Source: Aureimonas sp. Leaf427
GTDB lineage: Bacteria > Pseudomonadota > Alphaproteobacteria > Rhizobiales > Rhizobiaceae
Reading direction: 5' to 3'
Length of the DNA: 64,000 nt
NCBI RefSeq assembly: GCF_001425485.1
Contig: NZ_LMQW01000012.1
Location: forward strand, 43,170-107,169
Positions within the stretch are counted from its first letter, which is position 1. Each line of letters starts with the position of its first letter. Of the stretch, positions 1 through 21,971 are shown one piece after another. The position numbers and the translations under genes are program-made. A model generated the notes under the pieces. The model was not told where the DNA came from, did no database searches, and was given only the letters and a program-made list of their open reading frames with translations.

Positions 1-312
1 GGAATCGTGGAAGGCGTAGGTCATGGCGAAGGGCTCGGCGACCTCGGGGAAGCCCGCTTCCAGCTCGGCGAGCGAAACGCCCTCCTCCGAGACGAGGCCG
101 ACGCGCATGAAGAAACCGCCGGTGTCGAGATCGTCGAACTGCGCGCTGTCGACGACGTTGCAGCCCTTGGCCGCGAGGTAGGTGGAGATCGCCGCGACGA
201 TCCCGCGGGTCGACCGGCAGGTCACGGTGAGAACCAGGGAGAGCGGAGGCTTCGCCGCGCCGTCCGCCCGAGGCGCGGAGGCGGTGTTCGGGCGGGCGGA
301 TGCTTCAGACAT
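1..312 (-). CDS. purU: Formyltetrahydrofolate deformylase, N-terminal part (cut by window edge)
   Basis: PurU hydrolyses 10-formyl-THF to formate and THF in the cytoplasm. Only the first 104 residues lie in the window. They hold a short Ala/Pro-rich leader, then the ACT-type sensor start (LVLTVTCRSTRGIVAAIS) and the family signature NVVDSAQFDDLDTGGFFMRV, ending in AFHDS. The ATG at 312 overlaps the gmaS stop in the 8-base string ATGTCTGA, so the two are translationally coupled. Its place as last visible gene of mgsABC-gmaS suggests it drains one-carbon units from N-methylglutamate oxidation to formate. That role is inferred from context; the family call is firm. Confidence 0.9.
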   Translation of the reverse strand, partial: MSEASARPNTASAPRADGAAKPPLSLVLTVTCRSTRGIVAAISTYLAAKGCNVVDSAQFDDLDTGGFFMRVGLVSEEGVSLAELEAGFPEVAEPFAMTYAFHDS

Positions 313-1612
313 CGAGGGTCGTCTCCCGCTCCCAGGCGGTGAAATGGCTGCAGAAGCTGTTCCACTCCTGCCGCTTCAGCTTGAGATAGGCGGCCGAGAA
401 CTCGGCGCCCATCGCGGCCTGAAGCCCCTCGTCCTTCTCGTATTCGCGCAGCGCGTCCAGAAGGTTCAGCGGCAGCTTCGGCGCGTCCGTGATCGTGTGC
501 CCGTCGCGATACATGTCGATATCGTGGTGCGGGCCGGGATCGGCCTTGGTGCGGATGCCGTCGAGCCCGGCTGCGATGACGATCGCCTGGAGGAGATAGG
601 GGTTCACGGCGCCGTCGGGCAGCCGAAGCTCGAAACGGCCGGGGCCGGGCACGCGCACCATGTGGGTGCGGTTGTTGCCCGTCCAGGTGACGGAGTTCGG
701 CGCCCAGGTCGCGCCGGAAATCGTGCGCGGCGCATTGATGCGCTTGTAGGAATTGACCGTCGGATTGGTGATCGCGGCGAGCGCCGAGGCGTGTTTCATG
801 ATGCCGCCGAGAAAGGTGCGGCCCTGTTCGGAGAGCCCGAAGGGCATGGCCTTGTCGGCGAAGGCGTTGGCCGTGCCGTCCGTGTTCCAGACCGAGACAT
901 GGCAGTGGCAGCCGTTGCCGGTCAGGCCCTTGAAGGGTTTCGGCATGAAGGTCGCGCGGAGCCCGTGCTTCTCGGCGACGGACTTGACCATGAACTTGAA
1001 GAAGGAATGCTTGTCGGCCGTCTGCAGCGCGTCGTCAAACTCCCAGTTCATCTCGAACTGGCCGTTCGCGTCCTCGTGGTCGTTCTGGTAGGGCTTCCAG
1101 CCGAGCGCCAGCATGTGGTCGCAGATCTCGGCGATGACGTCATAGCGGCGCATCACGGCCTGCTGGTCGTAGCAGGGCTTCTCGGCCGTGTCGTATTCGT
1201 CGGAAATGGTCTTGCCGTCGGGCGAGATCAGGAAGAACTCGGCCTCGACGCCGGTCTTGACGCGCAGGCCCTCCGCGGCCGCCTCCGCGACCAGCTTCTT
1301 CAACAGGACGCGCGGCGCCTGATCGACCGGCTTCTCCTCCATCACGCAATCGGCCGCGACCCAGGCGACCTCCGGTTTCCAGGGAAGCTGGACGACGGAG
1401 GCGGCATCGGGAACGGCGAAGAGGTCGGGATGGGCCGGCGTCAGATCCAGCCATGTGGCGAAACCCGCAAAGCCCGCGCCGTCCTTCTGCATGTCCGCGA
1501 TCGCCTGCGCCGGCACGAGCTTGGCGCGCTGTCCACCGAAGAGGTCGGTGTAGCTGATCATGAAATACTTGACGCCCTTTTCGGCGGCATAGGCGGTGAG
1601 ATCGGTCGTCAC
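305..1612 (-). CDS. gmaS: Gamma-glutamylmethylamide synthetase (type III glutamine-synthetase family)
   Basis: Predicted to ligate monomethylamine to glutamate with ATP, giving gamma-glutamylmethylamide, the entry step of the indirect N-methylglutamate pathway. The 435-aa protein has the glutamine-synthetase fold features of the GlnT/GmaS branch: EAEFFL, NDHEDANGQFEMNW, NGCHCHVS, NPTVNSYKR, and a C-terminal RFELRLPDGAVNPYL block. The start is GTG at 1612 with GAGGGG 7 bases upstream. It follows mgsC by 88 bp on the same strand and overlaps purU. Family members are often annotated only as type III glutamine synthetase (glnT). The adjoining mgsABC and the mgd genes nearby favour GmaS, but substrate preference cannot be read from sequence alone. 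Confidence 0.87.
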   Translation of the reverse strand: MTTDLTAYAAEKGVKYFMISYTDLFGGQRAKLVPAQAIADMQKDGAGFAGFATWLDLTPAHPDLFAVPDAASVVQLPWKPEVAWVAADCVMEEKPVDQAPRVLLKKLVAEAAAEGLRVKTGVEAEFFLISPDGKTISDEYDTAEKPCYDQQAVMRRYDVIAEICDHMLALGWKPYQNDHEDANGQFEMNWEFDDALQTADKHSFFKFMVKSVAEKHGLRATFMPKPFKGLTGNGCHCHVSVWNTDGTANAFADKAMPFGLSEQGRTFLGGIMKHASALAAITNPTVNSYKRINAPRTISGATWAPNSVTWTGNNRTHMVRVPGPGRFELRLPDGAVNPYLLQAIVIAAGLDGIRTKADPGPHHDIDMYRDGHTITDAPKLPLNLLDALREYEKDEGLQAAMGAEFSAAYLKLKRQEWNSFCSHFTAWERETTLDV

Positions 1613-1700
1613 GGAGGTCCCCTCGGGTGGCTGACTTGTGGGAAGGTGGGAGCGATCCGACCGCTCCCCCCGAAGCCGGCCGTATCCGGCGGTCGTTCGG

Positions 1701-3029
1701 TCAGAAGCCGGCTTTGCCGGGGTACCATTCCGTGCCGGCCAGCGGCACGCGGGCCATGGCGGCAGCTTCGAGGGTCAGGGCGCAGAGATCCTCGGGCTCG
1801 AGATTGTGCAGATCGTTGTGGCCGCAGGCGCGCGCGATCGTCTGCGCCTCCAGCGTCATGACCTTCAGATAATTGGCGAGGCGCCGGCCGGCCGCGATCG
1901 GATCGAGGCGCTTGGCGAGCTCGGGGTCCTGCGTGGTGATGCCGGCGGGGTCCTTGCCCTCGTGCCAGTCGTCGTAGGCGCCGGCGGTCGTGCCGAGCGC
2001 CTGGTACTCGGCCTCCCATTTCGGATCATTGTCGCCGAGCGCGACGAGCGCCGCCGTGCCGATCGCCACCGCATCGGCGCCGAGCGCCATGGCCTTGGCC
2101 ACGTCCGCCCCGTTGCGGATGCCGCCGGAGACGATGAGCTGCACCTTGCGGTGCATGCCGAGATCCTGCAGCGCCTGCACGGCCGGGCGGATGCAGGCGA
2201 GGATGGGCTGGCCGACATTCTCGATGAAGACGTCCTGCGTCGCCGCCGTTCCGCCCTGCATGCCGTCGAGCACCACGACGTCGGCACCCGACTTCACGGC
2301 GAGCGCCGTGTCGTAATAGGGCCTGGAGCCGCCGACCTTGACGTAGATCGGCTTCTCCCAGTCGGTGATCTCGCGCAGCTCGGTGATCTTGATCTCCAGA
2401 TCGTCCGGCCCCGTCCAGTCGGGATGGCGGCAGGCCGAGCGCTGGTCGATGCCCTCCGGCAGGTTGCGCATCTTGGCGACGCGCGGCGAGATCTTCTGCC
2501 CGAGCAGCATGCCGCCGCCGCCGGGCTTGGCGCCCTGCCCGACCACGACCTCGATCGCGTCGGCCCGGCGCAGGTCCTTGGGGTTCATGCCGTAGCGGGA
2601 CGGCAGATACTGGTAGACGAGCACGTCGCTATGCCCGCGCTCCTCGTCCGTCATGCCGCCGTCGCCCGTCGTCGTCGAGGTGCCCGACAGGCTCGCGCCG
2701 CGCCCGAGCGCCTCCTTGGCATTGCCGGACAGGGCGCCGAAGCTCATGCCCGCGATGGTGATCGGGATCTTCAGGTGGATCGGCTTCTTGGCGAAGCGCG
2801 TGCCGAGCGTGACCGAGGTGTCGCAGGTCTCGCGGTAGCCTTCGAGCGGATAGCGCGAGATCGAGGCGCCGAGGAAGAGAAGGTCGTCGAAATGGGGCAC
2901 CTTGCGCTTGGTGCCGCCGCCGCGAATGTCGTAGATGCCCGTCGCCGCCGCGCGGCGGATTTCCGCCAGCGTGTGGTCGTCGAAGGTCGCGGACTTCCTC
3001 GGCGGCGTATGCGGGTTGTGATAGCTCAT
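1701..3029 (-). CDS. mgsC: N-methylglutamate synthase subunit C (FMN-binding glutamate-synthase domain)
   Basis: Homologue of the FMN/TIM-barrel synthase domain of glutamate synthase (also called GlxD). In the methylamine pathway it makes N-methylglutamate from gamma-glutamylmethylamide or methylamine and 2-oxoglutarate. The 442-aa protein shows ITIAGMSFGALSGNAKEAL, the flavin-loop motif VVGQGAKPGGGGMLLGQKIS, and the late-barrel stretch VVVLDGMQGGTAATQDVF and LIVSGGIRNGADVAKAMALGADAV, all typical of GltB-like synthase domains. The start at 3029 has AGGA upstream. It lies third in mgsA-mgsB-mgsC-gmaS-purU. A stand-alone glutamate synthase role is possible but unlikely given gmaS and the mgd genes. 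Confidence 0.88.
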   Translation of the reverse strand: MSYHNPHTPPRKSATFDDHTLAEIRRAAATGIYDIRGGGTKRKVPHFDDLLFLGASISRYPLEGYRETCDTSVTLGTRFAKKPIHLKIPITIAGMSFGALSGNAKEALGRGASLSGTSTTTGDGGMTDEERGHSDVLVYQYLPSRYGMNPKDLRRADAIEVVVGQGAKPGGGGMLLGQKISPRVAKMRNLPEGIDQRSACRHPDWTGPDDLEIKITELREITDWEKPIYVKVGGSRPYYDTALAVKSGADVVVLDGMQGGTAATQDVFIENVGQPILACIRPAVQALQDLGMHRKVQLIVSGGIRNGADVAKAMALGADAVAIGTAALVALGDNDPKWEAEYQALGTTAGAYDDWHEGKDPAGITTQDPELAKRLDPIAAGRRLANYLKVMTLEAQTIARACGHNDLHNLEPEDLCALTLEAAAMARVPLAGTEWYPGKAGF

Positions 3030-3107
3030 GTCCGCGTCCTGAAGCTCATCGTGTCTCTGTCGGGTCCGGGCGGCGCCTCGGACCGATCCTCGTGCTGCCG
3101 CTCGTCT

Positions 3108-3145
3108 GCGTCGGCGCCGCTAGTCAGCGTCGGCGCCGCTAGTAA
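3108..3145. repeat. 19-bp tandem duplication across the mgsB stop codon
   Basis: Two adjacent 19-bp copies, GCGTCGGCGCCGCTAGTCA and GCGTCGGCGCCGCTAGTAA on the plus strand, differ at one base and are followed by a partial third copy (GCGTCGGC). The downstream copy carries the mgsB TAG stop, so the other copy repeats the end of the gene just beyond it. It looks like replication slippage and leaves the reading frame intact. Confidence 0.85.
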
Positions 3146-3825
3146 GCGTCGGCATTGTCGATGTTGAACGTGTAGAGGCGGCGCGCCGAACCGTAGCGCC
3201 TGAACTCCTCCGGCCGGACGTCCTCGATGCCGGCCTTGGCGAGAAGGCCGGCCAGGATGTCCAGATGCTCCGGCCGCATCTCCTTCTCGATACAGTCGGC
3301 GCCGAGACTCTTCACGGAGCCGCGCACGAAGAGGCGGGCCTCGTAAAGACTGTCGCCCAGCGCGTCGCCCGCATCGCCGAGAACGACGAGATTGCCCGAC
3401 TGCGCCATGAAGGCCGACATGTGGCCGATCGAGCCGCGAACGACGATGTCGATGCCCTTCATCGAGATGCCGCAGCGCGAGGCGGCATTGCCCTTGATGA
3501 CGAGGAGCCCGCCCTGCCCGGTCGCGCCCGCATATTGCGAGGCGTCGCCCTCGATGACGACCGTGCCGGACATCATGTTCTCCGCCACGCCCGGCCCGGC
3601 CGAGCCCTCGACGGTGACGGTGCCGCCGTCGTTCATGCCGCCGCAGTAATAGCCGACGGAGCCTTTCACCTCGACGCTCAAGGGGCCGTCGATGCCGACC
3701 GCGATGGCATGGCCGCCACGCGGGTTCAGCACCTCGAAGGCGGTGTCGTTGGCCCCGGCGGGGACGGCATGGAGCGCCTGGTTCAGCTCGCGGAGCGGGG
3801 TGACGGCAAGGTCGAAGACGGGCAT
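3139..3825 (-). CDS. mgsB: N-methylglutamate synthase subunit B (GXGXG domain)
   Basis: A 228-aa protein made almost entirely of the glutamate-synthase GXGXG beta-helix domain (GlxC). Repeated turns such as GSVGYYCGGMNDGGTVTVEG, GPGVAENMMSGTVVIEGDASQYAG and GQGGLLVIKGNAASRCG are visible. In glutamate synthase this domain forms part of the ammonia tunnel between amidotransferase and synthase. Here it should bridge MgsA and MgsC. The ATG at 3825 is chosen because AGGA lies upstream and it gives the family length; longer in-frame extensions run into mgsA. The gap to mgsA is 44 bp. Confidence 0.88.
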   Translation of the reverse strand: MPVFDLAVTPLRELNQALHAVPAGANDTAFEVLNPRGGHAIAVGIDGPLSVEVKGSVGYYCGGMNDGGTVTVEGSAGPGVAENMMSGTVVIEGDASQYAGATGQGGLLVIKGNAASRCGISMKGIDIVVRGSIGHMSAFMAQSGNLVVLGDAGDALGDSLYEARLFVRGSVKSLGADCIEKEMRPEHLDILAGLLAKAGIEDVRPEEFRRYGSARRLYTFNIDNADAY

Positions 3826-3869
3826 GGCGAGGTCCTGCGCGGAAGGGCTCGGGTCGAAAGGGCGGCGGA

Positions 3870-4778
3870 TCAGGCCGCCTGGCGGTGGTCCCAGAAGTAG
3901 ACGGTCGCCGGCTCGGGCTCCCAGACGCGGGCGGTCTCGATGCCGGGCAGGTTCACCAGCGCGCGGTATTCCGAGCCGAAGGCAACGTACCGGTCGGTCT
4001 CGGCCATGACGGCGGGCTTGCAGGCGACGGGATCGCGCAGGACGCCGAAGCCCGATTGCGTGCCGACGACGAAGGTGAAGAAGCCGTCGAGATCGTCGAG
4101 CGCGCCGGACAGCGCCTGTCCGAGATCCTTGCCCTCGTTCATCTCGGCCGTCAGGTAGGCGGCGGCGACCTCGGTGTCGTTCTGCGTCTCGAAGCGCATG
4201 CCCTTGCGCACGAGTTCGCGGCGCAGGTTGTTGTGGTTGGAGAGCGAGCCGTTGTGGACGAGGCACTGGTCGGCGCCCGTCGAGAACGGATGCGCGCCCA
4301 TCGTCGTGACGGCCGATTCCGTCGCCATGCGGGTGTGGCCGATGCCGTGCGTGCCCGACATGGAGGAGACGCCGAAACGGGCGACGACGTCCTTGGGAAG
4401 CCCGACCTCCTTGTAGATCTCGACGCTCGCGCCCGCCCCCATGACGCGGATCGTCGGCGAGATCGCGGTCAGGGCCGCGCGGGCGGCGTCCGCATGTTCG
4501 GCGCCCATGGTGACGACGGCATGGGTGCTCTTCACCGCGACGCGCGCGGTGCCGGCGGTGGCGGGGCCGAGCTTCTCGGCAAGGCCCGCGAAATCGGCGT
4601 CCGGCCGGGCCGACTGGATGGTGATCTTGGTCAGGCCGTCGGCCTTGCCGCCGTAGATCGCGATCCCGGCGGAGTCCGGCCCGCGATCGGTCATGGTGAT
4701 CAGCATGTCGGAGAGGAGCGCGCCGAGCTGCGGCTCCAGAGTCTTATCCTTCAGGAACAAACCGACGATGCCGCACAT
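3870..4778 (-). CDS. mgsA: N-methylglutamate synthase subunit A (class II glutamine amidotransferase)
   Basis: A 302-aa Ntn-type amidotransferase (GlxB). After removal of the initiator Met, Cys2 (MCGIVGLF) would be the catalytic nucleophile. Other class II landmarks are the HGIGHTRMATES block and the HNGSLSNHNNLRREL block. It supplies nitrogen by cleaving the gamma-glutamyl amide, here presumably gamma-glutamylmethylamide. The start at 4778 is fixed by the need for Cys2. It is first in the mgsABC-gmaS-purU operon, with a 110-bp gap to the XRE regulator gene upstream that holds an operator-like motif (4844-4861). Confidence 0.88.
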   Translation of the reverse strand: MCGIVGLFLKDKTLEPQLGALLSDMLITMTDRGPDSAGIAIYGGKADGLTKITIQSARPDADFAGLAEKLGPATAGTARVAVKSTHAVVTMGAEHADAARAALTAISPTIRVMGAGASVEIYKEVGLPKDVVARFGVSSMSGTHGIGHTRMATESAVTTMGAHPFSTGADQCLVHNGSLSNHNNLRRELVRKGMRFETQNDTEVAAAYLTAEMNEGKDLGQALSGALDDLDGFFTFVVGTQSGFGVLRDPVACKPAVMAETDRYVAFGSEYRALVNLPGIETARVWEPEPATVYFWDHRQAA

Positions 4779-4843
4779 GGCAAATCCTTCCGATCGGGTG
4801 GCATGCCCCTTTATGCCGGATGACGGTCGTCTCGGCAATCGGT

Positions 4844-4861: not shown

Positions 4862-4888
4862 TCAGGCAATCACTGCGCCGGCTACGTG

Positions 4889-5590
4889 TCAGTCGGCGGC
4901 CGTTCCCGGCTGCGGGTAGCAGATGATGGAGAGGTAGCGGCAGGGCAGCGTCACGAGCTGCTCCGGCCCGTGCGGCGCGTCGGCGTCGAAGAAGAGGCTG
5001 TCGCCCGGCTGCATCTGGAAGAGGTGCGAGCCATGCCGGTAGACGACCTCGCCCTCCAGCATGTGCAGGAACTCCATGCCCGCATGCTGGAAGGTCGGGA
5101 AAACGTCGGATTCTTCCGTCAACGTGATGAGATAGGGCTCGACGGTGACGCCGCTCGTGTTGCCGTCGATATGGCCGAGGAGGTTGTACTGATGGCCCGC
5201 CCGCGTGCCCCGGCGCTCCAGCTCCACGCCCTCGCCGCTCTTGACGAAGACCGCCCGGCGCTCGTCCTCGAACCGCCGGAAGAAGGCCGTCAGCGGCACG
5301 CCCAGCGCGCGGGACAGGGCCTGGAGCGTCGTCAGGGAGGGCGAGATATTGCCGTTCTCGATCTTCGACAGCATGCCGAGCGAGATGCCCGTCGCGGAGG
5401 CGAGATCGCTGACGGTGATGCCGAGCTTCTTGCGGAAGGCGCGGACCTCGTGGCCGATGGCGAGCTCGAGATTGTTCTCCTTGGGCTCCCGGACCGCGTG
5501 GGGGTCCTGGCGCAGAGCCTGCACGGCGCCTTTGGGAACCGGCCGTTCCGTCGGCTCGGGCGCGGGGTTCTCTTCGAGGGTCTTCTTCAT
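4889..5590 (-). CDS. XRE-family regulator with C-terminal cupin sensor domain
   Basis: A 233-aa cytoplasmic regulator. Residues about 45-105 form an XRE helix-turn-helix (IGHEVRAFRKKLGITVSDLA, then TGISLGMLSKIENGNISPSL), and about 135-228 a small cupin (GHIDGNTSGVTVEP, FQHAGMEFLHMLEGEVVYRHG, GDSLFFDADAPHGPEQL). This layout is common in regulators of amine, polyamine and amino-acid use, where the cupin is thought to sense a small ligand. It lies upstream of mgsA on the same strand and divergent from a permease. Both flanking regions carry the same palindrome-like motif, so it probably controls both units and itself. The start is chosen at the first ATG giving a normal-length N terminus; the ribosome site is weak. 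Confidence 0.85.
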   Translation of the reverse strand: MKKTLEENPAPEPTERPVPKGAVQALRQDPHAVREPKENNLELAIGHEVRAFRKKLGITVSDLASATGISLGMLSKIENGNISPSLTTLQALSRALGVPLTAFFRRFEDERRAVFVKSGEGVELERRGTRAGHQYNLLGHIDGNTSGVTVEPYLITLTEESDVFPTFQHAGMEFLHMLEGEVVYRHGSHLFQMQPGDSLFFDADAPHGPEQLVTLPCRYLSIICYPQPGTAAD

Positions 5591-6032
5591 CGCAAAAAGG
5601 CGGCCTTCGCGGGCAGGGTCCGGGCCGCGCGGCCGACGGATGGGATCATTCGCCGATGAAGACCACCAATTCCCGAAAATGACAAATCCGCTGCCCGGGC
5701 CGCCCGGGCGTCGGAGCCCCAAGGGAACCGCCTGCCTCGAAAAGGACAGTGCGAAGAAATTATGTTTCCTTTCACGAAATTCTTTTGACAAGCGTTTCCG
5801 TGCGGAACATGATCCCTGCAACAGCCGACCGCCGATGGGTCGAAACCGCCGATCGGCGAGCAATCGCCCTTCGGATCGCACCGACATGAAGACGAGACCT
5901 CCGCGTCGCCGCCCTTCCAGCGGATTTCGGAGGTCGTGACGTTCCGGCATGTCCAGCACTTCGTCTGCGGACGATGCGGAACCGGGTCGTTATTCACAAG
6001 CCATACATGTGAGCGAGGGAGCGGTGCCCGCG
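5591..6032. promoter_or_regulatory. Divergent regulatory region, XRE regulator / APC permease
   Basis: A 442-bp region without a convincing gene, locally AT-rich around 5750-5800. It holds the operator-like motif at 5753-5770 and a TTGACA box at 5785-5790 that, with a 17-bp spacer and CATGAT at 5808-5813, could be a plus-strand promoter for the permease. An alternative permease start (ATG 5949, with GGAGGT at 5929-5934) would shorten the region. Confidence 0.5.
5753..5770 (+). promoter_or_regulatory. Operator-like motif upstream of the permease
   Basis: GAAGAAATTATGTTTCCT contains the dyad GAAA-N5-TTTC and matches the motif upstream of mgsA. It ends 14 bases before a TTGACA element, a position from which a bound regulator could block or recruit polymerase. 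Proposed as the second site of the XRE-cupin regulator. Confidence 0.5.
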
Positions 6033-7745
6033 ATGTCGACGGTGACGATCAAAGACGACCTTTCATCTTCCGGAAAGCTGCACCGCAGCATCGACTGGAC
6101 CGGGGCCTTCTGGGTCGCGAGCGGCGTTCCCGCCCTCGTCCTCTTCTCGATCGGCGGCATTGCGGGAACGGTCGGAAACCTCGCCTTCGCGGTCTGGATC
6201 GTCTCCATGATCATGGGCTTCATCCAGTCCTTCACCTATGCCGAGATCGCCGGCCTCTTTCCCAACAAGTCCGGCGGCGCCTCGATCTACGGCGCCTCGG
6301 CCTGGGTGCGCTACGCCAAGCCGATCGCGCCGCTCTCGGTCTGGTGCAACTGGTTCGCCTGGTCGCCCGTCCTCTCGCTCGGCTGCTCGATCGCCGCGGC
6401 CTACATCCTCAACGCGCTCGCCCCGGTTCCCGCGCTCGACAGCGCCTCGGTCGCGGGCTGGATCTCGGCCAACGGCGCGGCGCTGACCGTTCCCGATGCC
6501 GAGAAGGCGGCCGCCGCCGTGACGGCGCTGACGCCCTCGATCCGCACCTGGACCCTCTTCCAGACCACGCTCGGCCCGGTGTCGCTCTCGCTGAACGCGG
6601 CCTTCTTCATCGGCGCGATCCTGATGCTCGCCACCTTCGCGATCCAGCATCGCGGCATTCTCGGCACGGCCAAGGTGCAGAAGTATATCGGCCTCATCGT
6701 CATCATTCCCATGGCGATCGTCGGCATCGTGCCGCTGTTGAACGGCAGCGTGAACTGGTCGAACTTCTCGCCCTTCGTGCCGCTCGCCGCGGCCTATGCG
6801 CCCGAGCCCGGCGCCTGGAACGTCACCGGCTGGACGCTCGTCCTCGGCGGCATGTTCATCGCGGCCTGGTCGACCTACGGCTTCGAGACGGCGGTCTGCT
6901 ACACCAGCGAGTTCCGCGATCCCGGCCGCGACACGTTCAAGGCCATCTTCTTCTCCGGCCTCCTGTGCCTCGCCCTCTTCAGCCTCGTGCCCTTCACCTT
7001 CCAGGGCGTGCTCGGCCTCGACGGCATGCTGGCGACGCCGATCGTCGACGGCTCGGGCGTGGCGGCGGCCATGGCGCACATGGTCGGCGGCGGCGCCTTC
7101 ATCGAGAGCCTGCTCGTCATGCTGATGATCCTGGCGCTGATGCTCTGCCTGATGACGGCGATGGCGGGCTCCTCGCGCACGCTCTACCAGGGCTCCGTCG
7201 ACGGCTGGCTCCCGAAGTATCTCAGCCATGTCAACGAGCACGGCGCCCCGACGCGGGCCATGTGGACCGACCTCGTGGTCAATCTCGTCGTGCTCGCCAT
7301 CGCCTGCGCCGATGCGACCAGCTTCTTCTTCATCCTCGCCGTCTCCAACTGCGGCTACATCATCTTCAACTTCCTGAATCTGAATTCGGGATGGCTTCAC
7401 CGGATCGATTCCGGCCATGTCCTCCGCCCCTACCGGGCGCCGACGATCCTGCTCGTGCTCGGCGGCGTCTTCGCCTTCGTGAACGTCGTCTTCATGGGCG
7501 CCGGCGCCAAGGTCTGGAACCCGTCGGCGCTCTGGGCGGGGCTCATCACCGCCGCGCTCATCGTGCCCGTCTTCTGCTACCGCCACTACATCCAGGACCG
7601 CGGCCAGTTCCCCGCGCAGATGCTGGAGGATCTCGGCGTCAAGCCGGGCGAGCGGATGGTGCGCAAGGCGGGCATGCTGCCTTACCTGACCCTCGCCGCC
7701 GGCGTCGCCACCGTGCTCGTGTCCAACTGGTTCTTCCAGATCTGA
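6033..7745 (+). CDS. APC-superfamily amino acid/amine permease
   Basis: A 570-aa inner-membrane protein with about twelve hydrophobic segments, beginning DWTGAFWVASGVPALVLFSIGG and including the early-helix motif GLFPNKSGGASIYGASAWVRY typical of APC transporters. It probably imports a substrate of the island (a methylated amine, gamma-glutamyl compound or related amino acid); the substrate cannot be read from the sequence. ATG 6033 is preferred because it begins just ahead of the first membrane helix, but ATG 5949, preceded by GGAGGT, is also possible and would add 28 residues. It is first in the plus-strand series permease, dmm genes, tmm, tdm and is divergent from the XRE-cupin gene. Confidence 0.82.
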   Translation: MSTVTIKDDLSSSGKLHRSIDWTGAFWVASGVPALVLFSIGGIAGTVGNLAFAVWIVSMIMGFIQSFTYAEIAGLFPNKSGGASIYGASAWVRYAKPIAPLSVWCNWFAWSPVLSLGCSIAAAYILNALAPVPALDSASVAGWISANGAALTVPDAEKAAAAVTALTPSIRTWTLFQTTLGPVSLSLNAAFFIGAILMLATFAIQHRGILGTAKVQKYIGLIVIIPMAIVGIVPLLNGSVNWSNFSPFVPLAAAYAPEPGAWNVTGWTLVLGGMFIAAWSTYGFETAVCYTSEFRDPGRDTFKAIFFSGLLCLALFSLVPFTFQGVLGLDGMLATPIVDGSGVAAAMAHMVGGGAFIESLLVMLMILALMLCLMTAMAGSSRTLYQGSVDGWLPKYLSHVNEHGAPTRAMWTDLVVNLVVLAIACADATSFFFILAVSNCGYIIFNFLNLNSGWLHRIDSGHVLRPYRAPTILLVLGGVFAFVNVVFMGAGAKVWNPSALWAGLITAALIVPVFCYRHYIQDRGQFPAQMLEDLGVKPGERMVRKAGMLPYLTLAAGVATVLVSNWFFQI

Positions 7746-7759
7746 CAGGCTCGCTCAAA

Positions 7760-7789: not shown

Positions 7790-7816
7790 CTCAACGGCAT
7801 TCGCAGAGACCCGACC

Positions 7817-8419
7817 ATGCAGCTTTCCGACATCAAGAGCCGCCCGCTCTATGCCAAGCTCCGGCTCCAGCCGAAGGCGCGGCACCATCTCCTCGCCTGC
7901 GAGGGCGAAGGCGCGCTCGCCGCGGAAGAGGCCTTCGCCGGAGCGGGCGAAGCGCTGGCGCGCACGACGATCGTGTACCGGCCGGGGGCAAGCGCCTCGA
8001 AGCATCACCAGCATCGGCTCGCCGCCCTTTCCCCCGAGGCGCTCCACGTTCTGCCCTCCGGCGAAACGGCGATGATCCGGCTCGCCGCGCTCCTCGCCAA
8101 GGCGACGATGGGCACGCATCTCTATCTCGCCGGCACGGAGGACTTCATCGGCGAGGCGCGGCGCGTCGCCGCCGAAAGCGGACTCACCGAGGATGCCGTG
8201 CAGTGCGAGCATCGCGGCGCCCTGTCCCGCCGCGTGCAGTGCGTGCACTGCAAGGGCTTCACGGCCGAGGTCGTGGCGAGCCCCGTTCCCTGCAGCCATT
8301 GCGGTCTGGCGCTCCTCGTGCGCGATCACTATTCGCGCCGCCTCGGCGCCTTCATGGGCGTGTGCATCGATGCCGAGGCGCCCGGCGAGATTCCCGCCGC
8401 GGAGGCGTTTCCGGCATGA
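7817..8419 (+). CDS. dmmA: Dimethylamine monooxygenase small subunit, DmmA-like, with zinc ribbon
   Basis: A 200-aa protein placed first in a four-gene module matching the haem-dependent oxidative N-demethylase (dimethylamine monooxygenase). An N-terminal alpha/beta region (about 1-135) precedes a CxxC...CxxC ribbon with Cys142, Cys145, Cys159 and Cys162 that likely binds zinc or iron. It is thought to be an accessory or electron-transfer subunit; its exact role is not clear to me. Its TGA overlaps the next ATG as ATGA at 8416-8419. Naming of the small subunit as DmmA follows my recollection of current family names and could differ between authors. Confidence 0.75.
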   Translation: MQLSDIKSRPLYAKLRLQPKARHHLLACEGEGALAAEEAFAGAGEALARTTIVYRPGASASKHHQHRLAALSPEALHVLPSGETAMIRLAALLAKATMGTHLYLAGTEDFIGEARRVAAESGLTEDAVQCEHRGALSRRVQCVHCKGFTAEVVASPVPCSHCGLALLVRDHYSRRLGAFMGVCIDAEAPGEIPAAEAFPA

Positions 8420-9381
8420 GCGGCGGCGTCGAATACAAGGTCCGCGTCGTGGAGGCCGAGCCCGTCTCGTCCTCGGTCCGGCGGCTGCGCATGGAGCGGA
8501 TCTCGGGCGGGGACCTGCCGCCCTATTCGGCGGGGTCCCACACGGTGGTGACGCTGGAGACCGGCGAGCGCCGCGTGAAGAACGCCTATTCCCTGCTGGC
8601 CGGCACCCTCGCCGGCGGCGCGGCCTACGAGATCGCCGTCCAGCGCAGCTTGCACTCGCGCGGCGGCTCGGCCTTCATCCACGACCGCGTGGCGGTCGGC
8701 ACGGAGCTGACGCTCTCGGCGCCGGTCAATCTCTTTCCGGTCAACCGCACAGCGAAGCGCCACGTCCTCGTCGCCGGCGGCATCGGCATCACGCCGATCG
8801 CGGCGATGGCCGAGGAGCTGGCCGCCGCCGCCGCGCCCTACGAGATCCACTACGCCATGCGCGACGAGGCGAGCGGCGCCTTCGCGGAGGCGCTCGCGGC
8901 GCGGCATGGAAAGCGCCTGCGCCTCTACGTCAGCGCGCGCCGGGAGAGGCTCGCCGTGCGCGACGTCCTCCTCCACCAGCCGCTCGGCACGCATCTCTAC
9001 GTCTGCGGCCCCGAGCGCATGATCGAGGGCATGCTCGGCGACGCGCGCGAGGCGGGCTGGCCGGAGCGCGCGCTCCATGCCGAGCGCTTCCTCGCGCCCG
9101 AGGGCGGCGACCCCTTCGCGCTCCGGCTCCAGCGCTCCGGCCTGTCGCTCACCGTCGGCGCGCACCAGACGCTTCTCGAAGCCATCGAGGAGGCCGGGGT
9201 GGATGCGCCCTATCTCTGCCGGGGCGGGGCCTGCGGACAATGCGCGACGGCCGTGCTCGCCGCCGACGGCACGCTGCTCCACGCCGACCACTACCTGTCC
9301 GATGCCGAAAAGGCGGCGGGGACCACGATCATGACCTGCGTCTCGCGCCTGTCGGGCCGCGAACTCGTCCTCGACCTTTGA
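8416..9381 (+). CDS. Dimethylamine monooxygenase reductase subunit (flavin/2Fe-2S, PDR/VanB type)
   Basis: A 321-aa phthalate-dioxygenase-reductase-like protein that should carry electrons from NAD(P)H to the haem N-demethylase. Visible parts are the flavin-binding barrel (AGSHTVVTLETGE, RVKNAYSLLAG), the nucleotide-binding domain (HVLVAGGIGITPIAAMAEEL, YVCGPERMIEGML) and a C-terminal plant-type ferredoxin with CRGGACGQCATAVL plus a distal Cys in IMTCVSRLSG. That is the four-Cys 2Fe-2S set. It starts at ATG 8416 overlapping dmmA and is followed 14 bp later by the haem subunit. The family call is firm; the partner is inferred from gene order. Confidence 0.87.
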   Translation: MSGGVEYKVRVVEAEPVSSSVRRLRMERISGGDLPPYSAGSHTVVTLETGERRVKNAYSLLAGTLAGGAAYEIAVQRSLHSRGGSAFIHDRVAVGTELTLSAPVNLFPVNRTAKRHVLVAGGIGITPIAAMAEELAAAAAPYEIHYAMRDEASGAFAEALAARHGKRLRLYVSARRERLAVRDVLLHQPLGTHLYVCGPERMIEGMLGDAREAGWPERALHAERFLAPEGGDPFALRLQRSGLSLTVGAHQTLLEAIEEAGVDAPYLCRGGACGQCATAVLAADGTLLHADHYLSDAEKAAGTTIMTCVSRLSGRELVLDL

Positions 9382-9395
9382 ACGGAGGCGCTGCC

Positions 9396-15795: not shown

Positions 15796-15809
15796 AGCCG
15801 GACCGCGCT

Positions 15810-16778
15810 TCAGGCGCCCCCGCCCGCCCGCGCGCGACGAGCCGCGCCGGGCGGTTCGCCGAAGGCCTCCAGATAGCGGCGGGACAGGTGGCCGGCGCTG
15901 GAGAAGCCGGTCGCGAAGGCGATCTCGGCCAGCGAAAGCGGGCTCTGCGCGACGAGGCGCCGGGCCTGTTCGAGCCGGATGCCGCGATACTGCGCGCCGA
16001 AGCTCGAGCCCATATGCTCGGCGAAGAGGCGGTCGAGATGGCGCGGCGAGACCCCGGCAAAACGCGCCATCGCATCGCGCGTCAGCGGCGCCTCGATCGT
16101 GCCGATCATCTTTTCCAGGACGGCGACCAGAACCGGGTGATGGACGCGAAAGCGCTCCGACAGCGAGGCGCGCTGCGGCCCGGCCGCGCCGGAAACCTCG
16201 GTGTGGAGATACCAGTCGGCGACCCGGCGCGCGAAACCGGCGCCCATGCGCTCGGCGATCAGCGCGTGCATCATGTCGAGCGGCGCGACGCCGCCGCCGC
16301 AGGTCAGCCTGTTTCCGTCGATCACGAAGCGCGCTTGTTCCGGCCGAAGCGTCGGAAAGGCCTCGATCAGCGCCGGCGCATGCTCCCAGTGGACGGTGAA
16401 GCGGCGCCCTTCCATGAGCCCCGCCGCCACCAGGAGATAGGGCCCGCCGGAAATGCCGCCGATGCGCACGCCATCCGTGGCGGCGCGGCGAAGGCTCGCA
16501 TGGACCTCCGGCCGGTTCCAGTCCCTCGGGCCGCCGCCCGCGCAGACGAAGAGCATGGACAGGCCGGAGCCCCGGCCCGGCAGGGGCTCGGCCGGCGCCG
16601 CCATGCCGGAGGACGACGGCACCGGGTCGGCCTCGCCGAAGACGCGGATGCGGTAGAGATCGCGGCCGGCGATGAGGTTGGCGGCGCGGAAGGGCTCGCT
16701 GGCGGAGGCGAACGACATCAGCGCAAAGCCGGGCACGAGGATAAAGCCGATCTCCTGGATCGTCGGGTCGCCGTTCAT
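15810..16778 (-). CDS. GlxA/GbdR-like AraC-family regulator
   Basis: A 322-aa transcription regulator: residues about 8-175 form a DJ-1/PfpI-like amidase-fold sensor (IGFILVPGFALMSFASASEP, GGISGGPYLLVAAGLM) and the C-terminal 100 residues an AraC double HTH (MARFAGVSPRHLDRLFAEHMG, SLAEIAFATGFSSAGHLSRRYLEAFG). The sensor part resembles GbdR, the activator of glycine betaine/dimethylglycine/sarcosine use. It is divergent from mgdABCD with a 77-bp gap containing 13-14-bp direct repeats, so it probably activates mgd and controls itself. ATG 16778 is preferred over the TTG at 16814, which would place the repeats inside the gene. Confidence 0.85.
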   Translation of the reverse strand: MNGDPTIQEIGFILVPGFALMSFASASEPFRAANLIAGRDLYRIRVFGEADPVPSSSGMAAPAEPLPGRGSGLSMLFVCAGGGPRDWNRPEVHASLRRAATDGVRIGGISGGPYLLVAAGLMEGRRFTVHWEHAPALIEAFPTLRPEQARFVIDGNRLTCGGGVAPLDMMHALIAERMGAGFARRVADWYLHTEVSGAAGPQRASLSERFRVHHPVLVAVLEKMIGTIEAPLTRDAMARFAGVSPRHLDRLFAEHMGSSFGAQYRGIRLEQARRLVAQSPLSLAEIAFATGFSSAGHLSRRYLEAFGEPPGAARRARAGGGA

Positions 16779-16812
16779 GTCCCAAATCGTGCTCGATCCG
16801 TCCCATTCGTGC
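16779..16812. promoter_or_regulatory. Direct repeats in the AraC regulator / mgdA intergenic region
   Basis: GTCCCAAATCGTGC (16779-16792) and GTCCCATTCGTGC (16800-16812) lie head to tail about 20-21 bp apart, two helical turns, in the 77-bp gap between the divergent AraC-type regulator and mgdA. Spacing and direct orientation are typical of AraC-family sites. The first repeat abuts the regulator's start codon, fitting autorepression. Confidence 0.5.
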
Positions 16813-16855
16813 AAGCGCGAGGGGCCGGCCGGAGCGCATAAAGGGGGGACGCCGA

Positions 16856-18124
16856 ATGGAGCCCGCCCGTCCCATGCGCTATTCCGCCCTCTCGGTCTTC
16901 CTGAACGGTCTTCGCGGCAACGGCCACTGGGCCGAGGCCTGGCGCAGCCCGGAGCCGAAGGCGCATTACGACGTCGTGATCGTCGGCGGCGGCGGGCACG
17001 GACTGGCGACGGCCTACTACCTCTCCAAGACCTTCGGCATCCGCAACATCGCGGTGATCGAGAAGGGCTGGCTCGGCTCCGGCAATATCGGCCGCAACAC
17101 GACGATCATCCGCTCGAACTATCTCCTGCCCCGCAACAACCCGTTCTACGAGCTGTCCATGAAGCTCTGGGAGGGCCTGGAGCAGGACTTCAACTACAAT
17201 GCCATGGTCTCGCAGCGCGGCGTCCTGAACCTCATCCATTCCGACGCGCAGCGCGACGCCTATACGAGGCGCGGCAACGCCATGCGCCTGCACGGCGTCG
17301 ATGCCGAGCTTCTCGACCGCGAGGCCGTGCGGGACAAGCTGCCCTTCCTCGACTTCGACAATGCGCGCTTTCCCATCAAGGGCGCGCTGATGCAGCCGCG
17401 CGGCGGCACGGTGCGGCACGACGCGGTGGCCTGGGGCTATGCGCGGGGCGCCGACAGCCACGGGGTCGACATCATCCAGAATTGCGAGGTGACGGCGATC
17501 CGGCGCGAGAACGGGCGGATCGCGGGCGTCGAGACGACGCGCGGCTTCATCGGCGCGGGCAAGCTGGCCCTCGCCACGGCCGGCCATTCCTCGGCGACGG
17601 CGGCCATGGTGGACATGGTCCTGCCGCTGGAGAGCCATGTGCTCCAGGCCTTCGTCTCGGAAGGGCTGAAGCCCTTCATCGACCAGGTCGTGACCTTCGG
17701 CGCCGGGCATTTCTACGTCTCGCAGTCCGACAAGGGCGGGCTCGTCTTCGGCGGGGACATCGACGGCTACAATTCCTATGCCCAGCGCGGGAATCTGGCG
17801 ACCGTGGAGCATGTCGCGGAAGCCGGCGTCGCGATGATCCCGGGCCTGTCGCGGGTGCGGGTGCTGCGCTCCTGGGGCGGGGTCATGGACATGTCGATGG
17901 ACGGCTCGCCCATCATTGACCGCACCCATATCGACAATCTCTACCTGAACGCCGGCTGGTGCTATGGCGGCTTCAAGGCGACGCCGGCCTCCGGCTTCTG
18001 CTTCGCCCATCTGATCGCCAGGAACGAGCCGCACGAGACCGCCCGCGCCTTCCGGCTCGATCGCTTCCGGCGCGGCCACGCCATCGACGAAAAGGGCCAG
18101 GGCGCCCAGCCGAACCTCCACTGA
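16856..18124 (+). CDS. mgdA: N-methylglutamate dehydrogenase subunit A (SoxB-like FAD oxidoreductase)
   Basis: Homologue of sarcosine oxidase beta subunit. It should oxidise the N-methyl group of N-methylglutamate, freeing glutamate. The 422-aa protein has an FAD-binding VIVGGGGHGLATAYYL near residue 43, the family stretch GSGNIGRNTTIIRSNYL, and a C-terminal LNAGWCYGGFKATPASGFCFAHLI. The start at 16856 has a GGGGGGA ribosome site; the downstream ATG 16874 (MRYSALSVFLNG) lacks one but matches shorter relatives. It leads the mgdABCD operon. Against a plain sarcosine oxidase stands the co-located gmaS-mgsABC, which makes N-methylglutamate. Confidence 0.87.
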   Translation: MEPARPMRYSALSVFLNGLRGNGHWAEAWRSPEPKAHYDVVIVGGGGHGLATAYYLSKTFGIRNIAVIEKGWLGSGNIGRNTTIIRSNYLLPRNNPFYELSMKLWEGLEQDFNYNAMVSQRGVLNLIHSDAQRDAYTRRGNAMRLHGVDAELLDREAVRDKLPFLDFDNARFPIKGALMQPRGGTVRHDAVAWGYARGADSHGVDIIQNCEVTAIRRENGRIAGVETTRGFIGAGKLALATAGHSSATAAMVDMVLPLESHVLQAFVSEGLKPFIDQVVTFGAGHFYVSQSDKGGLVFGGDIDGYNSYAQRGNLATVEHVAEAGVAMIPGLSRVRVLRSWGGVMDMSMDGSPIIDRTHIDNLYLNAGWCYGGFKATPASGFCFAHLIARNEPHETARAFRLDRFRRGHAIDEKGQGAQPNLH

Positions 18125-18188
18125 ACGAGCGGCCCTTCCCTTTCCCGCCTCCCCATCCGCCGAAGCACCCGAGCAGGACACGAACGAC

Positions 18189-18467
18189 ATGGCGAGCCTC
18201 ATCCGCTGCCCCCATTGCGGGGCACGTCCGAAGGAGGAGTTCACGATCCGGGGCGCCGCGCTGGAGCGGCCGGCGCCGGACGCCTCCGACGAGGCGTGGT
18301 ACGCCTATGTCTATCTGCGCGAGAACCCGCGCGGGGCCTATGACGAATATTGGCACCACAGTTCGGGCTGCCGCCGCTGGCTGATCGTCTCGCGCAACAC
18401 CATCACCCACGAAAGCTCGGGCGTCCGCGACGTCGCGCTCGGCACGGCGGCGGAGATGCCGGCATGA
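18189..18467 (+). CDS. mgdB: N-methylglutamate dehydrogenase subunit B (SoxD-like, zinc-binding)
   Basis: The 92-aa delta-subunit homologue. It has the characteristic N-terminal CPHCGARPKEEF and the later HHSSGCRRW, which together supply the zinc ligands seen in heterotetrameric sarcosine oxidase, and the conserved YAYVYLRENPRGAYDEYW. It is structural rather than catalytic. It lies 64 bp after mgdA, and its TGA overlaps the mgdC ATG (ATGA, 18464-18467). Confidence 0.88.
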   Translation: MASLIRCPHCGARPKEEFTIRGAALERPAPDASDEAWYAYVYLRENPRGAYDEYWHHSSGCRRWLIVSRNTITHESSGVRDVALGTAAEMPA

Positions 18468-21424
18468 GCGCCCGCCGCCTGCCCTCCGGCGGCCGGATCG
18501 ACCGCACGCGGACGATCCGCTTCACCTTCGACGGCGAGGCCCTGACCGGCCATCCCGGCGACACGCTCGCCTCCGCGCTTCTCGCCAACGGGCGCGTGCT
18601 GATGGGGCGGTCCTTCAAGTATCACCGGCCGCGCGGCGTCGTCACCGCGAACTCGGCCGAGCCGAACGCGCTGGTGACGGTCGGCGCGGGCGGGCGGCGG
18701 GAGCCGAACAGCCGGGCGACCATGGTGGAGCTGCACGACGGGCTCGACGCCGTCAGCCAGAACCGCTGGCCCTCGCTGGAAAGCGATATCGGCGCGGTGA
18801 ACGGCCTGCTATCGCCCTTCCTGTCGGCGGGCTTCTACTACAAGACCTTCATGTGGCCGGCCGCCTTCTGGGAGAAGGTCTACGAGCCCTTCATCCGCCG
18901 CGCCGCCGGGCTCGGCACGGCCAGCTACGAGGCCGACCCCGACCGCTACGAGAAGGCCTTCGCGCATTGCGACCTTCTCGTCGTGGGCGCCGGCCCCGCC
19001 GGCCTCGCCGCCGCGCTGACGGCGGGCCGCGCCGGGGCGAGCGTCATCCTGATGGATGAGAACGCGGAGGCCGGCGGCTCGCTGCTCCACGATCCCGCCC
19101 GGATCGACGGCCGACCCGCCTCCGCCTTCGCGGCCGGCCTGCTGGGCGAGCTGGCAAGCTTTCCGAACGTGCGCGTCGTCCCGCGCACGACCGTCTTCGG
19201 CTGGTACGACGACATGGTCTTCGGCGCGGTGGAGCGCACGGGCAAGCATCTGGCCGCGCCCATGCCCGGCCATCCCGCCGAGCGCCTCTGGCGCGTCGTC
19301 GCACGGCGGGCGATCCTTTCGACCGGTGCCGAGGAGCGCCCGCTCGTCTTCGGCGGCAACGACCGGCCGGGCGTGACGACGGCCGAGGCCGCCATGGCCT
19401 ATGCCGGGCGCTATGGCGTCGCCGTCGGGCAGCGCGTCTGCGTCTTCGCCAATTCCGATGCGGGCGCGCGCACCGCCGCGACGCTGGAAGCCGCCGGCAT
19501 CGAGGTCGCGGCGCTCGTCGATTCGCGGACGGACGTGCAGACCCCGGCCGTCGAGGCCCGCCTCTACAAAGGCGCCACCGTCACCGGCACCGCCGGCCGC
19601 CGGGCGCTGCGCTCCGTCACGATCCGCCGGAACGGCGCGGAGGAGGTCGTCGAGGCCGATGCGCTCGCCATGTCCGGCGGCTTCAGCCCGCGCATCCATC
19701 TCGCCTGCCATCGCGGCGGCAAGCCGCGCTGGAGCGAGACGCACGCGGCTTTCCTCGCGCCGGACGGCCTCAGGGGTCTGACGCTCGCCGGCGCATCGAC
19801 GGGCGCTTCGACGCTGGCCGCCTGCCTTGCGGAAGGCTCCGCCGCCGCTCTCGATGCGCTCGGCGACCTCGGCCGCTCCGGCACCGCGCCCGAATTCGGC
19901 GCCATCGAGAACGATGCTTCGGCTCGGCCGGCAAAGCCCCTCTGGCGCGTGCCGGCGGCGAAGGGCAAGGCCTTCGTCGACTTCCAGAACGACGTGCATC
20001 TCGGGGATCTCGGTCTCGCCGTTCGCGAGGGCTTCGGCCATGTCGAGCTGGCCAAGCGCTACACGACGAGCGGCATGGCGACCGACCAGGGCAAGCTGTC
20101 CAACGTCAACGCGATCGGCATTCTTGCCGAGGCGCGCGGCGTCTCGCCGGCCGAGGTCGGCACCACGACCTTTAGGCCCTTCTACACGCCCGTCTCCTTC
20201 GGCGCCCTGACCGGCACCGCGAAGGGCCGCCATTTCCAACCCGTCCGCCGCTCGCCGCTCCACGGCTGGGCGGAGCTGAACGGGGCGGAGTTCGTCGAGA
20301 CCGGGCTCTGGTATCGCTCGTCCTACTTCCCGCGCGCGGGCGAGACGGGCTGGCGCCAGAGCGTCGACCGGGAGGTGCTCACCGTGCGCGAGGCCGCCGG
20401 GCTTTGCGACGTCTCGACCCTCGGCAAGATCGAGATCTTCGGCCGCGACGCCGCCGAATTCCTGAACCGCGTCTATTGCAACGGCTTCCTGACGCTGGCC
20501 GTCGGCCGGGCGCGCTACGGCATCATGCTGCGCGAGGACGGCATGGTCTACGACGACGGCACGACGAGCCGGCTCGGCGAGACCCACTTCCTGATGACGA
20601 CGACGACCGCGCTCGCGGCCGGCGTCATGACGCATCTGGAATTCTGCGCCCAGACGATCTGGCCCGAACTCGACGTGCGCATCGCGTCGGCCACCGACCA
20701 GTGGGCGCAGATGTCGCTGGCCGGGCCGAAGGCGCGCGAAATCCTTTCCGCCGTCGCGGACGAGGACGTCGCCGACGAGGCCCTGCCCTTCATGGCCGCG
20801 CGGGAGGCGAGCTTTCTCGGCGGAGAGATCCGGGGCCGGCTCTTCCGCATCTCCTTCTCCGGCGAGCTCGCCTACGAGATCGCGGTGCCGGCCGCCTTCG
20901 GCGAGGCGATGGCGGACGCGCTGATGGAGGCAGGCGCCGCGCACGGCATCTGCGCCTATGGCACGGAGGCGCTCGGCGTGCTGCGCATCGAGAAGGGGCA
21001 CGTCACCCATGCGGAGATCAACGGCACGGTGACGCCGGCCGATCTCGGCCTCGGCAAGATGGTCTCGGCGAAGAAGGCCGACTTCATCGGCAAGCACATG
21101 CTGGGACGCGAAGGGCTGCTCGCGCCGGACCGGCCGCGCCTCGTCGGCGTCCGGCCCCTCGACCCCGGCCAGAGCTTCAGGACGGGCTCGCACATCCTCG
21201 CCAAGGGCGCCGAAGCCACGCTCGAGAACGACCAGGGCTATGTCACGTCGAGCTGCTTCTCGCAGACGCTCGGCTCGACCATCGGCCTTGCCCTCGTCGT
21301 GAACGGGCCGGAGCGCCATGGCGAGGAGGTCGTCGCCTGGAACGGCCTCGCCGGCCAGTTCACGCCGGCCGTCCTCGTCGATCCGGTGTTCGTCGATCAG
21401 AAGAACGAGAAGCTCCATGTCTGA
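18464..21424 (+). CDS. mgdC: N-methylglutamate dehydrogenase subunit C (SoxA-like, NAD/FAD and folate-binding)
   Basis: The 986-aa alpha-subunit homologue. An N-terminal ferredoxin-like segment (to about 115, with GRSFKYHRPRGVVTANSAEPNAL) is followed by a nucleotide-binding pyridine-nucleotide-disulfide-type domain (GAGPAG at about 175-180) and, from roughly residue 620, a GcvT-type THF-binding domain that accepts the methyl group as methylene-THF. NAD is the presumed acceptor in N-methylglutamate dehydrogenase. The ATG overlaps the mgdB stop and its own stop overlaps the mgdD ATG in ATGTCTGA. Length agrees with SoxA proteins, about 950-1000 residues. Confidence 0.88.
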   Translation: MSARRLPSGGRIDRTRTIRFTFDGEALTGHPGDTLASALLANGRVLMGRSFKYHRPRGVVTANSAEPNALVTVGAGGRREPNSRATMVELHDGLDAVSQNRWPSLESDIGAVNGLLSPFLSAGFYYKTFMWPAAFWEKVYEPFIRRAAGLGTASYEADPDRYEKAFAHCDLLVVGAGPAGLAAALTAGRAGASVILMDENAEAGGSLLHDPARIDGRPASAFAAGLLGELASFPNVRVVPRTTVFGWYDDMVFGAVERTGKHLAAPMPGHPAERLWRVVARRAILSTGAEERPLVFGGNDRPGVTTAEAAMAYAGRYGVAVGQRVCVFANSDAGARTAATLEAAGIEVAALVDSRTDVQTPAVEARLYKGATVTGTAGRRALRSVTIRRNGAEEVVEADALAMSGGFSPRIHLACHRGGKPRWSETHAAFLAPDGLRGLTLAGASTGASTLAACLAEGSAAALDALGDLGRSGTAPEFGAIENDASARPAKPLWRVPAAKGKAFVDFQNDVHLGDLGLAVREGFGHVELAKRYTTSGMATDQGKLSNVNAIGILAEARGVSPAEVGTTTFRPFYTPVSFGALTGTAKGRHFQPVRRSPLHGWAELNGAEFVETGLWYRSSYFPRAGETGWRQSVDREVLTVREAAGLCDVSTLGKIEIFGRDAAEFLNRVYCNGFLTLAVGRARYGIMLREDGMVYDDGTTSRLGETHFLMTTTTALAAGVMTHLEFCAQTIWPELDVRIASATDQWAQMSLAGPKAREILSAVADEDVADEALPFMAAREASFLGGEIRGRLFRISFSGELAYEIAVPAAFGEAMADALMEAGAAHGICAYGTEALGVLRIEKGHVTHAEINGTVTPADLGLGKMVSAKKADFIGKHMLGREGLLAPDRPRLVGVRPLDPGQSFRTGSHILAKGAEATLENDQGYVTSSCFSQTLGSTIGLALVVNGPERHGEEVVAWNGLAGQFTPAVLVDPVFVDQKNEKLHV

Positions 21425-21971
21425 GATCGCAAGCCGACGGATCGCGCCCCGCCCCGCCCTGCCGCAGGCGCCGCTCGGCGGGCCGGGCTCGGCCCTCGTC
21501 CTGGCCGCACTGCCGGAGGGCCATGTCCTGCAGGCGCTCGCGGAACCGGCGGCGGACGATGTGAGCACCCGTCTCGCCGGGATCGGCGACGGCGGCCCCT
21601 TCGCGGTGCGCCCCCTCTCCCCCGGCCAGTGGTTCGTCGTCGGGGACGCGCCGCTGTCTCCGGCGGCCCTTACCGAACGGGCGAGCGGGATCGCCGATGT
21701 CGCGGCGCTCAGCGATCAAAGCAGCGGCCGCGTGCGCATCGCGCTTCGCGGTCCTGCCGCCGAAGCGGTGCTCTCGCGCGGAACGGCGGTCGACGTGTCG
21801 CGCATGGCCTTCCCCATCGGCCGCTCCGCGCAGACGCTGTTCGGCCATATCGGCATCCACCTCACCCGCGTCGGGGAGGATGCGTTCGAGCTGATGGTCC
21901 TGCGCAGCTTCGCGACGAGCCTCTGGGAGGAGCTGCGCGATCTCGGAGAGCCGCATTTCGGCGGGTCCTGA
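21417..21971 (+). CDS. mgdD: N-methylglutamate dehydrogenase subunit D (SoxG-like)
   Basis: The 184-aa gamma-subunit homologue, a reduced GcvT-like fold that packs against the alpha subunit. Recognisable pieces are VRPLSPGQWFVVGD, the central SDQSSGRVRIALRGPAAEAVLSRG and a C-terminal LMVLRSFATSLWEELRDLG. Translation starts inside the last codons of mgdC (ATGTCTGA), the same 8-base coupling string found at gmaS/purU. Last gene of the operon. Confidence 0.85.
   Translation: MSEIASRRIAPRPALPQAPLGGPGSALVLAALPEGHVLQALAEPAADDVSTRLAGIGDGGPFAVRPLSPGQWFVVGDAPLSPAALTERASGIADVAALSDQSSGRVRIALRGPAAEAVLSRGTAVDVSRMAFPIGRSAQTLFGHIGIHLTRVGEDAFELMVLRSFATSLWEELRDLGEPHFGGS

Follow-up and report, generated by a model that had tools for sequence, protein, structure and literature searches.

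Positions 1–21971 of the window (the whole 64,000-nucleotide stretch of Aureimonas sp. Leaf427 DNA analysed here) carried gmaS, mgsABC, dmmABC with dmmD, tmm, tdm and mgdABCD, together with a part of purU, as identified by matches to curated NCBIfam and Pfam profiles. The minus strand, read from right to left, held genes for an XRE-cupin regulator, mgsA, mgsB, mgsC, gmaS and the first 104 codons of purU. The plus strand held tmoP, dmmA, dmmB, dmmC, dmmD, tmm, tdm, mgdA, mgdB, mgdC and mgdD in that order, with a minus-strand gene for an AraC/GlxA-type regulator placed between tdm and mgdA. Each gene named in the initial annotation of this region matched its own family, confirming the placement given there.

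All genes of the N-methylglutamate pathway (gmaS, mgsABC and mgdABCD) were found in the island. The gamma-glutamylmethylamide synthetase gene gmaS (305–1612, minus strand) encodes a GmaS-type glutamine synthetase III that scored 676.1 bits on TIGR03105 against an NCBIfam cut-off of 469.6, and its best PDB match was the type III glutamate-ammonia ligase 7cql (E 2.7e-188, residues 3–434), which we take to be a GmaS entry. The three N-methylglutamate synthase subunits exceeded cut-offs for Pfam domains only and comprised the FMN glutamate-synthase-like subunit mgsC (1701–3029, minus strand; Glu_synthase, 6.7e-88), the GXGXG subunit mgsB (3139–3825, minus strand; GXGXG, 9.6e-11, with the start picked from the reading frame) and the class II glutamine amidotransferase subunit mgsA (3870–4778, minus strand; GATase_6, 5.2e-21, with its start at MCGIVG). 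The dehydrogenase subunits followed on the plus strand as the SoxB-like mgdA (16856–18124; TIGR01373, 711.4 bits, cut-off 529.45), the SoxD-like mgdB (18189–18467; SoxD, 3.7e-29, over the Pfam cut-off), the SoxA-like mgdC with its GcvT domain (18464–21424; TIGR01372, 1423.3 bits, cut-off 1164) and the SoxG-like mgdD (21417–21971), which at 128.3 bits fell below the TIGR01375 cut-off of 143.95 and exceeded that of Pfam SoxG.

The aerobic trimethylamine (TMA) oxidation set lay between these two groups on the plus strand, with Tmm and Tdm over curated cut-offs and DmmABC, including the haem alpha subunit, recognized by Pfam domains. The dimethylamine monooxygenase subunit gene dmmA (7817–8419; PF22290 and PF22289) was followed by dmmB (8416–9381; Fer2 and NAD_binding_1) for a reductase subunit with a 2Fe-2S domain, by dmmC (9396–10439; PF11927, 7.3e-71) for the haem-binding alpha subunit of an oxidative N-demethylase, and by dmmD (10503–11636; GCV_T, 2.1e-59) for a GcvT-like protein; DmmA and DmmC both exceeded their Pfam cut-offs. 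The closest solved structure to DmmC was the haem-dependent oxidative N-demethylase 5lte (E 1.1e-143, residues 3–335 of 347). Trimethylamine monooxygenase, encoded by tmm (11829–13184), scored 838.6 bits on NF058570 against a cut-off of 675, and its closest solved structures were Tmm-type flavin monooxygenases (8b2d, 5ipy and 6kbw). The demethylase of trimethylamine N-oxide (TMAO), encoded by tdm (13411–15795) and combining DUF1989 and GcvT domains, scored 1259.6 bits on NF053776 (cut-off 1100) and was closest to the solved TMAO demethylase 9q59; alignment with the Methylocella silvestris TVC protein showed that the metal-site Cys, His and Asp residues quoted for DUF1989 in PMC12560246 are kept. 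The initial annotation of a near-complete TMA-to-formate pathway was therefore sound, as every gene belongs to a curated or domain family and Tmm, GmaS, Tdm and DmmC have solved relatives. Stop codons inside some Tdm matches were considered as possible read-through and dropped, being most likely alignments that overran the natural stop.

The initial annotation had also suggested that an APC permease takes the part of TMAO importer, and this was borne out by tmoP (5949–7745, plus strand), whose APC-family product scored 894.4 bits on the curated TMAO permease model NF053774 (cut-off 690), indicating that a predicted importer, TmoP, is present in the island. The same gene name denotes the TMAO permease in the Figure 1 legend of PMC5520151, which covers the clusters of Ruegeria pomeroyi and M. 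silvestris. One ABC importer was seen in the window (53547–57718); its ATPase was nearest to 2-aminoethylphosphonate and polyamine types, below every cut-off shown, and its parts sit among uronate genes. The reported absence of the ABC importer TmoXWV from the window, judged by this one importer, therefore looks right. The surrounding uronate cluster (52003–61343) comprised a fructuronate-reductase-like gene, the ABC importer parts, glucuronate isomerase (UxaC) and mannonate dehydratase (UxuA), and a second APC-type permease gene was located at 39804–41240, away from the island. Next to the island was a gene for a 1159-residue autotransporter (22061–25540), followed at 25961–31745 by genes for a cellulose-synthase-like glycosyltransferase, BcsB and a family 8 glycosidase.

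Two resident regulators had been proposed, and both were recovered. The AraC/GlxA-type protein (15810–16814, minus strand, divergent from mgdA; HTH_18 and DJ-1_PfpI domains) has an AraC-type helix-turn-helix and adjoins the mgd operon, in agreement with the type and place of R. pomeroyi TmaR, an AraC-type regulator beside mgd whose main clade is defined by >44% identity to SPO1584 (PMC13390433). Regulators adjacent to mgd in Thalassospira, Neorhizobium and a Rhizobium plasmid shared 58%, 55% and 65% identity, respectively, with the window protein. By type and position, it is most likely a TmaR-type activator. The XRE-cupin protein (4889–5590, minus strand; HTH_3 and Cupin_2) has a PuuR-like architecture and gave a partial match to the PuuR model, 61 of the 211 cut-off bits. 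PuuR regulates the related gamma-glutamylputrescine pathway. Of the 14 loci in which mgsA was matched, 11 had the XRE-cupin gene upstream of it and three had at most 253 bases of upstream sequence, too short to tell; the gene was also present on plasmid CP007069. An XRE gene is listed in PMC7574528 too, in passages that do not state its function. The XRE-cupin protein is most likely another regulator, acting locally on the mgsABC-gmaS side. By analogy, it might further respond, like PuuR, to a gamma-glutamyl or N-methylglutamate intermediate and set the methylamine half independently of the TmaR-type activator, a tentative and rather unlikely extension. Twelve sequences upstream of XRE genes were searched for a common operator; no motif emerged, with 9-mers shared by at most 5 of the 12 and the sole shared 6-base inverted repeat present in 3.

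The SoxBDAG-like genes at 16856–21971 might alternatively encode a sarcosine oxidase and not N-methylglutamate dehydrogenase, as the matched NCBIfam subfamily models carry that name and the closest solved structures of MgdA and MgdC are of heterotetrameric sarcosine oxidase. We consider this improbable, given that the genome has a second SoxB-like gene, 53% identical, on contig C5, that mgdA relatives adjoin gmaS in several genomes, and that the window copy accompanies a TmaR-type regulator and N-methylglutamate genes, an arrangement shared with R. pomeroyi mgd (PMC13390433); on sequence context, mgdABCD is the probable assignment. Another concern was raised by purU, which the initial annotation had placed inside the 22 kb. 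This held for codons 1–104 (1–312, minus strand, frame 312–1), whose ACT domain scored 25.6 bits (1.1e-5), just below the Pfam cut-off of 27. The remainder lies upstream of the window on the same contig, with Formyl_trans_N matched in L009:17432–18094. The start codon of purU overlaps the end of gmaS. The gene is interrupted by a single N flanked on both sides by a 99-base direct repeat, an arrangement resembling an assembly seam; just past purU there is another N, this one with a 171-base repeat. A second purU copy near the lon and clpX genes (contig C23, L010:6177–7149) contains this N and its 99-base direct repeat too and is 98.7% identical over 973 bases to the island copy (window 1–234 and upstream, contig C12), and the seam looks like an assembly problem resulting from two near-identical copies. 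These irregularities could also be taken as signs that the island is degenerate or misassembled and that the set is non-functional in this strain, which we regard as very improbable since the remaining genes are open frames of expected lengths and their order agrees with that in relatives. At its N-terminus the island PurU is about 22 residues longer (312–238) than the C23 copy. In another genome (G094) the two purU copies differ, with the island copy matching more closely (90% vs 83%), so the second purU of the host may derive from the island copy. FolD, needed between methylene-tetrahydrofolate (methylene-THF) and PurU, is encoded outside the island, at a distance of about 172 kb from its end on the same contig.

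The most substantial alternative concerns the fate of formaldehyde, which the initial annotation had proposed to be trapped on THF at each demethylation. GcvT domains of Tdm (85 rows, the host's own being L092), DmmD (42) and MgdC (7) were aligned with E. coli GcvT, and the equivalents of D96, Y101, E195 and R223 in the mature E. coli protein were examined. The D96 and E195 equivalents were invariant in all three (85/85, 42/42 and 7/7). Y101 was kept in the window DmmD, in all 16 rows of its subclass and in 18 of 26 rows of a more distant one; Tdm carried F (69/85) or L (16/85) at this position, and MgdC S or A. The R223 equivalent was lost in Tdm, DmmD and MgdC alike, with L in 85/85 Tdm rows and L or M in MgdC. 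Sarcosine oxidases of the 2gag_A type use folate, and 2gag_A itself aligned with M at R223; the loss of R223, shared also by DmmD, is therefore not decisive alone. Judged by these residues, DmmD is favoured as the best candidate folate trap and Tdm is doubtful in this role; MgdC is plausible by relationship, the residue test saying little about it. A broader version, in which the island is mainly a folate trap where Tdm, DmmD and MgdC each bind THF, no free formaldehyde arises and PurU drains the carbon to formate, is possible with the balance somewhat against it. It agrees with the D96 and E195 equivalents kept by all three proteins and the Y101 kept by DmmD, with the position of purU after gmaS both here and in relatives, and with the requirement for dmmD in R. 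pomeroyi during growth on TMA and TMAO (PMC5520151). It is opposed by the substitutions at Y101 and R223 in Tdm and MgdC and by the finding that dmmD is not essential on dimethylamine (DMA; PMC5520151). PMC12560246 further reported that TMAO demethylation needs no THF, which slightly lowers formaldehyde release, and took the missing Y101 and R223 as an argument that Tdm's use of THF is probably vestigial. The host additionally encodes three Fae-family proteins (contigs C1, C2 and C49), one of their genes lying about 2 kb from the single Mch gene on contig C1, as well as formate-THF ligase. Parts of a predicted methanopterin formaldehyde route are thus present, and folate with PurU need not be the sole formaldehyde sink.

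The initial annotation had regarded the complete set side by side as unusual, and this view was not upheld by published clusters, by genomes of the family and genus, or by a Rhizobium plasmid. The window's family was represented by 151 genomes, the host's among them, and 30 of these had a close tdm homologue (E up to 1e-150). Together with two more from the genus, these gave 32 tdm-bearing genomes that were searched for gmaS, dmmC, mgdA and tmm. All five markers were present in 23 of the 32, and in 10, including the window's genome, all five started within a 30-kb span of a single contig, a lower bound owing to contig breaks. Among the best 80 of 582 tdm loci, Neorhizobium lilium (L014) had the same order from mgsB through mgdD, the araC gene included, and five others (L012, L013, L015, L016 and L017) had the same order from mgsB to tdm before their sequence ended about 10 kb past tdm without an mgd match, such that the order mgsBA/XRE-tmoP-dmmABCD-tmm-tdm is common to L012–L017. 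Thalassospira profundimaris (L089) carried mgsABC, gmaS (truncated where the stretch ends), dmm, tmm, tdm, mgd, XRE and AraC genes in a rearranged form, and no tmoP match was found in that stretch. Most of the remaining loci in these best 80, many on short contigs, showed the set in part only. As gene order is conserved in relatives, chance assembly of the island can be ruled out. Relatives of tdm (E up to 1e-100) occurred on 139 of 72,556 plasmid records, 95 of them from Rhizobium; the one plasmid record examined, CP007069, had all island genes, 47–91% identical in the aligned portions, and purU immediately followed gmaS.

The window mgdA was 84–87% identical to those of eight genomes of other genera vs 72–73% to three of its own genus, and gmaS was 87% identical to that of G088 vs 65–66% to those of G151 and G154, two genomes of the same genus in which the markers were spread over >150 kb. 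These identities suggest that modules, mgd among them, have been exchanged between lineages. Recent acquisition of the island was considered and rejected: its GC content (66.1–72.8% in 2-kb steps over 1–22 kb) was similar to that of the rest of the window (63.5–72.0%) and no tRNA or Rfam matches were found in the window, so there was no sign of a foreign insert.

We interpret the locus as a methylated-amine catabolic island like those of Roseobacters, Paracoccus and Methylocella, with a probability of about 0.93. Gene content, order, family membership and conservation are observed, and its function, regulation and carbon fate in this strain are predicted from sequence. TMAO would enter via TmoP or be formed from TMA by Tmm, and Tdm would convert it to DMA and formaldehyde. 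DmmABC would then demethylate DMA to methylamine, with DmmD probably passing formaldehyde to THF, after which GmaS, MgsABC and MgdABCD would convert methylamine to ammonium and methylene-THF; FolD, encoded outside the island, and then PurU would yield formate. The TmaR-type activator would be encoded beside mgdA, and the XRE-cupin protein would act locally on the mgsABC-gmaS side. A TMA-to-ammonium island that has mostly been discussed for marine Roseobacters thus recurs in compact form in both chromosomes and plasmids of a rhizobial family. The annotations of such genes inspected there were generic or wrong. The finding is relevant to the question of which organisms use up methylated amines on land and plants; it involves no new chemistry.

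Both main points of the initial annotation, the complete cluster and folate trapping, are already in print for other Alphaproteobacteria. Folate trapping of methyl groups was proposed in PMC7574528, which described Rhodobacteraceae clusters with folD, purU and GlxA-type and XRE regulators, and trapping by DmmD was proposed in PMC5520151, a study of the dmm genes and of DmmD function. A TMA cluster was published for R. pomeroyi DSS-3 (SPO1548–1588), where tmm, tdm, dmmDABC, gmaS-mgsABC and mgdABCD form one chromosomal cluster with an AraC-type regulator by mgd, as in the window; expression of the cluster genes is induced jointly, and growth on the respective amines requires tmm, tdm, dmmA and tmaR (PMC13390433, PMC5520151). 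R. pomeroyi differs in having the ABC importer TmoXWV and the GntR repressor TmoR, where the window has TmoP and an XRE-cupin gene beside mgsA, and in placing dmmD before dmmA, whereas it follows dmmC in the window. M. silvestris shares with the window a TmoP-type permease, Tmm, Tdm and DmmABC (PMC5520151), and NF053774 and NF053776 appear, from their model names, to be based on this species. In M. silvestris TVC (L038) we found dmmCBA, tmoP, a dmmD-like gene, tmm and tdm, with the DmmD-like protein only 37% identical and its gene apart from dmmABC, and no matches to gmaS, mgs or mgd within the 10 kb tdm flanks. Paracoccus sp. N5 and P. aminovorans pAMV1 likewise have compact islands with TMA, DMA and N-methylglutamate genes and CH2=THF oxidation, and theirs also include serine-cycle genes (PMC4543880, PMC8235418); PMC4543880, which covers Paracoccus sp. 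N5 and Roseobacters, termed such sets compact methylotrophy islands, and PMC8235418 also treats Aminobacter. Plasmid CP007069 of Rhizobium leguminosarum bv. trifolii CB782 carries, at 133750–160063, the same mgdABCD, GlxA-type and XRE-type regulators, mgsABC, gmaS, purU, dmmDABC, tmm, tdm and tmoP, several of them mislabelled in the record (tmm as a potassium transporter, the XRE gene as MerR). Its gene order differs from that of the window, as dmmD precedes dmmA and seven further annotated genes lie between tmm and tdm.
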